A DNA stretch of 20,260 nucleotides from a virus, in the IMG/VR virus record IMGVR_UViG_3300033552_000067, positions 1 to 20,260 of that record; one strand, given 5' to 3'. The translations under genes and the position numbers were made by a program. Positions 16,743 to 18,954 of the stretch are shown one piece after another (the stretch's first letter is position 1; each line of letters opens with the position of its first letter). The notes under the pieces were generated by a model. That model was not told the origin of the DNA. It did no database searches and was given only the letters and a program-made list of their open reading frames with translations.

Positions 16743-17282
16743 TTAAGCTTCGTTGGTTGATAGCACTCCGTCTCTGGTCATAGAAACTTGTCTTACATTA
16801 TCAGGTTCTCCCACTACATACTTAGGTCTTCTTGCTCCCAATAATCTACTTTTAGCTATCCAGGTAAAACCTACAGAATCTGATTGGTTTCCTCCGTACA
16901 CACAAAAGCTTGTTGCATCTTCCGCCACATAAAAACCTACGTGGCCTCCACCTTCTCTAACAAATACAAGTACGTCCCAAAGCATTTCTCTACCTTTTAT
17001 TACTGGATCGCCCCACTTTATCCACTCTCTAGCGGATAGTAATTTATTCTTGTCAAAAGCATAATTACACTTGTGAGCTACCCAGCCCACAAATAAACCG
17101 CACCAGGGGATTGAATCTTTGCTGTACCAACTAATTCCCAAAGTCTTAGCCCAACTTAAAATTGTTGGGTTGTCATTGGCGCCAATTACTTCTTTTAAAC
17201 CATTGTACTTTAAAGCTTCTACTAACATAGCTGGAGCTTTTTCTTCCGCTAACCAGCTGAACTTGTTTTCTAATTTTACCAT
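16743..17282 (-). CDS. Endolysin, CHAP/NlpC-P60-like (TIGR02594 type)
   Basis: This is a predicted peptidoglycan-cleaving enzyme for host lysis. The 179-residue protein has DSIPWCGLFVGWVAHK with catalytic Cys61, then AREWIKWGDPV, a VLVFVREGGGHVGFYV strand pair with His114, and VYGGNQSDSVGFTWI with Asn132, the order found in TIGR02594-type cysteine peptidases. There is no signal peptide, so release depends on the holin candidate upstream in the operon. It is the last gene of the minus-strand operon, ending 19 bases from the shared terminator. Family confidence is high; the bond cleaved is not determined by sequence. Confidence 0.88.
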   Translation of the reverse strand: MVKLENKFSWLAEEKAPAMLVEALKYNGLKEVIGANDNPTILSWAKTLGISWYSKDSIPWCGLFVGWVAHKCNYAFDKNKLLSAREWIKWGDPVIKGREMLWDVLVFVREGGGHVGFYVAEDATSFCVYGGNQSDSVGFTWIAKSRLLGARRPKYVVGEPDNVRQVSMTRDGVLSTNEA

Positions 17283-17290
17283 GTTCTAGT

Positions 17291-17545
17291 TTACCATTTG
17301 TTAAGTGGACACCTTGAATGCTCCCCAGCTGTTTTACCAGCTAAGGGACAATGGCATTCTCCGCATTTGTACATCGAACTGTTTTCGTTAATTGCGTTAA
17401 GGATAAGTTGCCCAGTTGATCCTATTTGTACTTTAGATGGGCACAAGTCGCAAATAGCTAAGCGACGTTGAGCTAATTCCTGAATTTCAGGAGTTTGTTG
17501 AATAAAGCTGTACCAGGCTTTTGCTATTTCAGTTAAACTGCTCAT
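17291..17545 (-). CDS. Small six-cysteine zinc-binding-like protein
   Basis: An 84-residue protein with CDLC at 32-35, KCGECHCPLAGKT at 60-72 and RCPLNKW at the C-terminus. The six cysteines (32, 35, 61, 64, 66, 79) suggest one zinc site and perhaps a second. I recall small phage proteins with a similar 'CxxC...CxCPLxxK...CPxxKW' pattern, but no established function. The N-terminal 30 residues are helical. It lies 10 bases after the large membrane-anchored protein and 8 bases before the endolysin gene, so it is in the lysis cassette by position. Confidence 0.7.
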   Translation of the reverse strand: MSSLTEIAKAWYSFIQQTPEIQELAQRRLAICDLCPSKVQIGSTGQLILNAINENSSMYKCGECHCPLAGKTAGEHSRCPLNKW

Positions 17546-17554
17546 ATTAAGTTT

Positions 17555-18364
17555 TTAAAACCTGACAAAATCGTAATTAATACCTACAGCTTGGAACCAA
17601 TTCCGATCAGTAACGTTGTAATAACTATACCCGATAATGTTATACCTTTTAAAATCAAAACTTGCGCCTGGGCCTACAAAGAGTTTTTGGCTATCCATTA
17701 CATAAATACTTCTTAGTTGTAGCCTTAATCCGAATTGAGGCTCCCTTTGTTCAATTTTAAGCCTGTCAATTCCGTTAATAGTGTTTCTTTTGTCATCACT
17801 CCAAATATCTACGTAGCTTCTTTTCGCACCGATAACAGGGAATTTCTTTTTCCAGTATTGAACATAATTGAGTTTAGCATTATACATATAATCAAAAGTT
17901 GGAATTGTGTCTACGGCATCCGGCAGCTTAAACTTAACGGCTAAATAATTATCGTTATAGGTGTAGAAAACTCGATTTAAAGAATCTATGGTCTTTTTTA
18001 AAACAAGATTTTCCGCGGCTAAAGTCGTGTTGATAATGGTAATAGATTCAACCTGCTTTTTTCTAATGTTCAAATCCGAGGCTGTAGAATCTACAATACC
18101 GGGTCTAACTTCATCATCATTCAGAAAACCCCTAGGTAAAATGTTTTCTGCTTCTGCAATGGTCACGCGTTCTAGGCCCTCCTCGCTAATTTTGCGATTT
18201 AAAATAGTTGCCTCTGTTTGAATTTCCTTTTTTTGAAGAGCTTCTTTTTTATTGGCCTGGGTAATCACAGCTTTCATTTCTATGTTGTCTTTCCGTAGAA
18301 AAATAATTACAAGTACTAGAGCAGGAATCACCAGCAAGTACCAAAATCTTAATAAACTTCTCAT
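17555..18364 (-). CDS. Membrane-anchored protein with beta-strand C-terminus, spanin candidate
   Basis: No family is recognised with certainty. The 269 residues show an N-terminal transmembrane helix at about 6-23 preceded by arginines (inside) and followed by a long helical, coiled-coil-prone periplasmic part (about 25-130). The last 80 residues form several amphipathic strands (FGLRLQLRSIYV, KLFVGPGASFDF, YNIIGYSYYNV, WFQAVGINYDFVRF) and the protein ends in Phe, as outer-membrane proteins do. This fits a single protein that could bridge the inner and outer membranes. It overlaps the 99-residue membrane protein gene by ATGA and sits between the holin candidate and the endolysin. The spanin role is inference; a structural or tail role is the alternative. 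Confidence 0.65.
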   Translation of the reverse strand: MRSLLRFWYLLVIPALVLVIIFLRKDNIEMKAVITQANKKEALQKKEIQTEATILNRKISEEGLERVTIAEAENILPRGFLNDDEVRPGIVDSTASDLNIRKKQVESITIINTTLAAENLVLKKTIDSLNRVFYTYNDNYLAVKFKLPDAVDTIPTFDYMYNAKLNYVQYWKKKFPVIGAKRSYVDIWSDDKRNTINGIDRLKIEQREPQFGLRLQLRSIYVMDSQKLFVGPGASFDFKRYNIIGYSYYNVTDRNWFQAVGINYDFVRF

Positions 18365-18660
18365 TTTTGCGTTGTTTTTAAACTGTCTGTTTTTGTTGTT
18401 TCCGTTTTTTTATCAATTATTTTAAGTACTCCAGTGCTCACTAATAAGGCGTTATATAACTCGTTTTTTTCTTTTCGTTCCTGTCTTATTTCTGTTCTTA
18501 ATCGTTCATTATCAGCTTCACAACTTTTATTTGATGAAGAGGTAACGTCTGAATTTTGGTAGAATAAAAACCCTATAATACCGACTGCACTTATGAGCAT
18601 ATAAGCCCATGGATACTTTGCAACTTCCTGTATGGTTGGTTTTAAGTGTATCTCTTCCAT
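18361..18660 (-). CDS. Small N-terminally anchored coiled-coil protein, possible i-spanin
   Basis: A 99-residue protein with one transmembrane segment at about 17-34 (YPWAYMLISAVGIIGFLFYQ) and then a charged, coiled-coil-prone periplasmic region (CEADNERLRTEIRQERKEKNELY) with a single cysteine at 47. The topology is that of Rz-type inner-membrane spanin subunits. Its stop shares ATGA with the start of the 269-residue gene, similar to the nested or overlapping pairs common in spanins. It follows the holin candidate by 24 bases. The function is inferred from size, topology and context. Confidence 0.65.
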   Translation of the reverse strand: MEEIHLKPTIQEVAKYPWAYMLISAVGIIGFLFYQNSDVTSSSNKSCEADNERLRTEIRQERKEKNELYNALLVSTGVLKIIDKKTETTKTDSLKTTQK

Positions 18661-18684: not shown

Positions 18685-18954
18685 TCAATCATCTGATTTC
18701 GTAATTGTTGCGACTACTTTTGCTACCGTTGTTTCGCCTGTTTTTGGCACTGGGGGTTTATCTGAACTGCTGAAATAAACTCCCATTACGCTACCTACCA
18801 TTGAGCCACCCATTACAAAACCTATGAGTAATTGTAATATGCCTGCATCGTCACCGTGAACCACAACTACATAGCTCATAAAAATCATTGTGTAAGCCAT
18901 GATAGCAACAGCTAGTAAGCTTCTTATTGGATTGTCTTTTATTGACTGGTTCAT
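18685..18954 (-). CDS. Two-span holin candidate
   Basis: An 89-residue protein with hydrophobic segments at about 10-32 (IRSLLAVAIMAYTMIFMSYV) and 37-61 (AGILQLLIGFVMGGSMVGSVMGVYF) separated by a short HGDDAG loop. The C-terminus is a hydrophilic, lysine-containing tail. This is a class II holin-like layout, consistent with a pore-former that times lysis. It is immediately followed by the two other membrane proteins and the endolysin on the same strand. Small phage membrane proteins are hard to assign individually, so the call depends on context. Confidence 0.7.
   Translation of the reverse strand: MNQSIKDNPIRSLLAVAIMAYTMIFMSYVVVVHGDDAGILQLLIGFVMGGSMVGSVMGVYFSSSDKPPVPKTGETTVAKVVATITKSDD

Follow-up and report, generated by a model that had tools for sequence, protein, structure and literature searches.

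The 269-aa protein described here, encoded in the lysis cassette of a Bacteroidota phage, is best read as a spanin of inverted topology, with its N-terminus in the inner membrane and a C-terminal β-structured tip in the outer membrane. We put the probability of this at about 0.6. Spanins are the machines that break the outer membrane and let new phages out. A spanin with an N-terminal inner-membrane anchor and a β-stranded outer-membrane end had been suggested in a first-pass annotation of the window (the whole stretch of viral DNA analysed, 20,260 nucleotides), and except for the coiled coil that it assigned to the 269-aa protein, this remains the best-supported reading. The reasons are that linkage to the lysis cassette is conserved across endolysin types, that the strands of the tip have the character of outer-membrane strands, and that the same position in the cassette is held by unimolecular spanins (u-spanins) in phages RAP44 and 11b.

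The relevant features of the window are as follows.

16743-17282, minus strand: 179-aa endolysin of the TIGR02594 family (104 bits, cut-off 70.6), also with PHROG lysozyme/endolysin matches.
17291-17545, minus strand: 84-aa Cys-rich (C4-type) protein, between the 269-aa gene and the endolysin; matches phrog_13558 (E = 6.3e-8, no function given).
17555-18364, minus strand: 269-aa candidate inverted-topology spanin (DUF6549/DUF6808-like), with an N-terminal transmembrane (TM) segment, a β-rich, predicted periplasmic body and a four-strand C-terminal tip.
17558-17746, minus strand: codons of residues 207-269 of that protein, four amphipathic β strands with a terminal Phe; putative outer-membrane anchor.
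18227-18361, minus strand: codons of residues 2-46 of the same protein, N-terminal helix with the inner-membrane segment and no lipobox.
18361-18660, minus strand: 99-aa partner, i-spanin-like, with an N-terminal TM and a short probable coiled coil.
18685-18954, minus strand: 89-aa two-TM protein, holin candidate; weak match to phrog_9990 (no function given).

Both open reading frames of the pair were confirmed from the sequence and the ORF coordinates, as was their ATGA overlap, which joins the stop of the 99-aa frame to the start of the 269-aa frame. The two-TM gene lies upstream of the pair, and the Cys-rich protein and then the endolysin lie downstream. The closest relative of the 269-aa protein (64% identity, in an IMG/VR locus) has an 82-aa two-TM gene in the position of the window's 89-aa gene. 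The 269-aa gene sits in a lysis cassette, which is the location expected of a unimolecular spanin. A lipobox scan found no plausible lipobox ORF on the pair's strand anywhere in the 20-kb window, and both the scan and the sequence show that the 269-aa protein itself has none. A hidden, embedded Rz1-like lipoprotein was considered and ruled out, none being found on that strand. The pair in the window is accompanied by neither a lipoprotein o-spanin gene nor a classical u-spanin gene.

The AlphaFold2 monomer model of the 269-aa protein (pLDDT 88.5, pTM 0.62) has helices at residues 2-46 and 88-98, with the rest being β. The N-terminal membrane helix seen in the first-pass annotation is therefore present in the model. 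The middle of the chain, taken there to be a long coiled coil, is mostly β; coiled coil seems more developed in relatives that have no tip, judging from inspection of their sequences and from Pfam coiled-coil matches. The four amphipathic C-terminal strands with a terminal Phe were also recognised correctly, both in the model and in the alternation of hydrophobic and polar residues. They lie at residues 211-222, 227-238, 241-250 and 255-264 (pLDDT 95-97), and the chain ends in YDFVRF.

A Foldseek search of the PDB with the whole model gave no significant match, and no PDB sequence relative has a significant E-value. Taken as a separate unit, residues 207-269 align to the membrane parts of AtaA and Hia (Z 5.3-5.4, rmsd 3.1-3.3 Å), to barrel strands in the BAM-EspP and SAM-Mdm10 complexes, and also to unrelated sheets, all PDB matches having Z under 6. 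A C-terminal part folding as a soluble domain would have spoken against a spanin of this kind; since the model shows the tip as a four-strand sheet on its own, and membrane barrels are prominent among its weak structural matches, this is not the picture obtained. The model of a relative with only two tip strands (locus L027) gives weak PDB matches to Ig-like sheets only, and in BFVD it matches DUF6808 and phi17:2 proteins.

Searches of Pfam, PHROG and NCBIfam assign the 269-aa protein to no family above threshold, DUF6808 (PF20647) at its gathering cut-off included. Its family can nevertheless be identified through its relatives. After the IMG/VR protein noted above (L003), the next closest is a 234-aa protein of Elizabethkingia phage TCUEAP3 (30% identity, tblastn 7e-8), which scores above the DUF6808 gathering cut-off (30.1 bits vs 24.4). 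Foldseek matches the 269-aa model to a DUF6808 protein (2e-6), and 24 of the 42 aligned relatives match DUF6808 at E ≤ 0.01. In proteins of the family the body corresponds to DUF6549 and the tip to DUF6808. One of them, L013, scores above cut-off for DUF6808 and just short of it for DUF6549, which makes the two domains parts of one superfamily. By homology of both body and tip, the 269-aa protein belongs to the TCUEAP3/L003 family of this DUF6549/DUF6808 superfamily of Bacteroidota phages (PHROGs 14010 and 26448, no function given); it differs from the Pfam entries in falling under the reporting limit and in having two additional tip strands. Neither DUF is mentioned in the literature searched.

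Searching phage contigs and Bacteroidota genomes with profiles gave 63 non-identical loci, whose members fall into three classes: tip-less, two-strand and four-strand. Tip-less relatives are frequent, with 133 phage records matching that of B124-14, so whatever the body does can be done without the tip. Should the body function on its own in those phages, the outer-membrane step would have to be carried out there by something else.

In the window protein, hydrophobic/polar alternation in the four tip strands exceeds that of composition-matched permutations (P = 0.015), whereas its other strands do not stand out (P = 0.34). The same holds throughout the family: compared with shuffles, the tips give Stouffer z values of 8.6 (four-strand class) and 10.4 (two-strand class), against 0.7 and 0.3 for the bodies of the same two classes. 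The last residue is Phe or Trp in 33 of 39 non-redundant members, compared with a C-terminal aromatic in 21 of 295 neighbouring ORFs (P about 3e-25), a count that is partly selected because some of the members came from searches with a profile of the C-terminus, although most of the four-strand group was recovered with a full-length profile. The tips are also enriched in Gly. Alternation, a C-terminal aromatic and Gly enrichment are all typical of membrane β strands, and the four C-terminal strands are very probably a small β-sheet anchor for the outer membrane.

These features of the tip bear directly on what we regard as the most serious alternative, though an unlikely one: that the 269-aa protein is anchored in the inner membrane like an i-spanin, while its C-terminal sheet stays periplasmic and attaches to a separate o-spanin, to a host outer-membrane protein or to the outer membrane, without inserting into it. 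This would fit with the weakness of the tip's structural matches, and with the tip-less relatives, which carry the same body and occupy the same cassettes. It would also fit phage B40-8, in which a tip-less member is about 1 kb from a downstream lipoprotein gene. The distance agrees with the separated i-/o-spanin pair described for that phage (PMC6139136), and we infer that these are the same two genes. Against it count the alternation, the terminal aromatic and the Gly enrichment, and the pair's strand in the window offers no lipoprotein candidate to serve as the o-spanin.

A search for relatives beside endolysins had been proposed as a check on the spanin reading, and it was successful: the family usually adjoins an endolysin. 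In 44 of the 63 loci a cell-wall hydrolase could be recognised nearby on the same strand (36 by homology to cassette enzymes and 8 by Pfam), and six further loci have what are, by similarity, plain copies of tested hydrolases. In eight loci, all from one prophage clade, no endolysin was seen close by; the last five include contigs that end early. The hydrolases are of about ten unrelated kinds (Amidase_2, Amidase_3, M15_3, M15_4, TIGR02594/CHAP-like, GH19, GH24-type lysozyme, GH108-like, PF11860 muramidase and glucosaminidase), which implies that the association of the family with a hydrolase has been remade many times. None of the 63 loci contains a classical u-spanin. In other Bacteroidota phages the slot is filled either by a classical u-spanin, with a lipobox and a C-terminal TM, as in the equivalent cassettes of RAP44 and 11b, or by a tip-less relative, as in B124-14, where it adjoins an M15 endolysin.

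The range of endolysins also weighs against the idea that the protein is a virion-associated (tail or ejection) protein, lying near endolysin genes by chance, which we consider improbable. Its main support comes from Cellulophaga phage phi4:1, whose gp57 (identical to phi17:2 gp59) is annotated as a structural protein from MS/MS proteomics. This is a probable distant relative of the window protein, with a structural match at E = 1.8e-8 and a weak sequence match at E about 4e-4, and the gp57 gene shares 11 nt with the endolysin gene. Purified virions can carry membrane proteins along, and gp57 may belong to the virion or be a contaminant from a membrane. In addition, in three regions fetched from the prophage clade without a nearby endolysin, the pair is inside a tail module. 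Presence in virions, which the first-pass annotation would have taken as evidence against a spanin, is thus indicated in part, by a weakly matching relative; the conserved N-terminal membrane segment and the translational coupling to a short N-anchored partner both argue against a structural role.

This partner, the 99-aa protein in the window, had been described as an N-anchored coiled-coil protein. An N-anchor is predicted, its TM being identified by sequence inspection with a hydropathy just under the cut-off used; the coil is probable. The protein has a weak match to the PHROG 'Rz-like spanin' (phrog_739, E = 2.9e-4). By sequence alone it has no close relatives in IMG/VR or phages, and its relatives were instead recovered through gene neighbourhood. 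A homologous short partner, N-anchored in most cases, lies directly upstream of the family member in 44 of the 63 loci, and although coiled coil can inflate such matches, its position and overlap are independent signs, the overlap being exactly 4 nt in 31 of those 44. The co-translated 99-aa protein is probably an i-spanin-like partner.

In its general arrangement the pair recalls lambda Rz/Rz1, which is also an overlapping gene pair whose first protein has an N-anchor and a coiled coil, as is predicted for the 99-aa protein. It differs in that the o-spanin lipoprotein is missing, and the second protein carries a β-tip as well as an N-anchor of its own. The closer functional comparison is with the unimolecular spanins (T1 gp11, RAP44 gp03 and 11b gp49). 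In these, as in the window, one protein is predicted to link both membranes, the gene lies in the same place by the endolysin, and the periplasmic part is β-rich (as reported for gp11). The polarity, however, is opposite. A u-spanin is attached to the outer membrane through a lipobox at its N-terminus and to the inner membrane through a TM helix at its C-terminus, whereas the window protein has its inner-membrane anchor at the N-terminus, and its outer-membrane anchor would be the C-terminal β-tip; in place of a C-terminal TM helix the AlphaFold2 model has β structure. The 269-aa protein thus probably works like a u-spanin, yet lacks two of the features that define the class.

On the basis of these observations, we propose the following mechanism. 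The N-terminal helix would hold the 269-aa protein in the inner membrane and its β-rich body would span the periplasm, while the four-strand tip would insert in the outer membrane, probably by way of the host BAM machinery reading the C-terminal Phe as a signal. Since four strands are too few to form a closed barrel, the tip probably acts as an oligomer; three copies, for instance, would give 12 strands, as in the anchors of trimeric autotransporters. These anchors (Hia, AtaA and YadA type) likewise have four amphipathic C-terminal strands per chain and a terminal aromatic; their passengers are surface-exposed, whereas the body of the window protein would be periplasmic and remain linked to the inner membrane, and the likeness is a weak one, of structure and not of sequence. 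Once the holin and endolysin had removed the peptidoglycan, the linked pair would be free to cluster, drawing the two membranes together and so disrupting the outer membrane, with some division of labour between the 269-aa protein and its partner. How an inner-membrane-anchored protein gets its C-terminus folded into the outer membrane is a question raised by this proposal.

More tentatively, and at somewhat less than even odds, Bacteroidota phages may rely on a distinct class of spanin: a chain anchored in the inner membrane would end in an oligomeric outer-membrane β-barrel and so be fixed, as a single chain, at both membranes, the u-spanin topology would be reversed, and lysis would proceed by barrel insertion and not by a lipid anchor. 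Surveys of spanins require a lipobox and would therefore have missed such a design. Kongari et al. (2018; PMC6139136) listed B124-14 and the Croceibacter phages P2559S and P2559Y among phages without spanins; they deemed an outer-membrane protein possible as an o-spanin, and left it out of consideration. A lipobox-filtered survey from 2025 states that Bacteroidetes phages use unimolecular spanins only (PMC12596118). The present family supplies concrete candidates for the outer-membrane-protein option, and suggests a testable role for DUF6808, DUF6549 and PHROGs 14010 and 26448.

P2559S is also the source of a further, very improbable alternative, in which the N-terminal segment would act as a signal peptide and be cleaved off, the tip would hold a secreted o-spanin to the outer membrane and the 99-aa partner alone would be the i-spanin. 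In that phage an N-anchored 124-aa protein overlaps an ORF that appears to encode a signal peptide, along with a coil and a hairpin at the C-terminus ending FYYGGRLSFAIW, a pair likened to the window's by its layout and not by homology. In the 269-aa protein, however, the hydrophobic stretch (IIFLRKDN) is not followed by small residues at -3/-1, and the helix of the model is unbroken from residue 2 to 46.

Three loci merit separate mention. In P2559S (L079, 27300-28065) gp30 has probably been annotated with the wrong start (27826), and it is the longer ORF that carries the signal peptide, coil and hairpin. In L027, a cassette with a tip-bearing member, a 124-aa lipoprotein (2195-2569) follows a GH108 endolysin, and is either a possible o-spanin or unrelated. 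Finally, L029 (MT135313.1, 404-1520) places a Zot-like ATPase next to an M15 peptidase, a two-TM protein and a protein with a DUF6808 tip. It would be odd for a filamentous-type phage to carry a lysis cassette; the record, an unverified circular one of 4.6 kb labelled Inovirus, may be chimeric.
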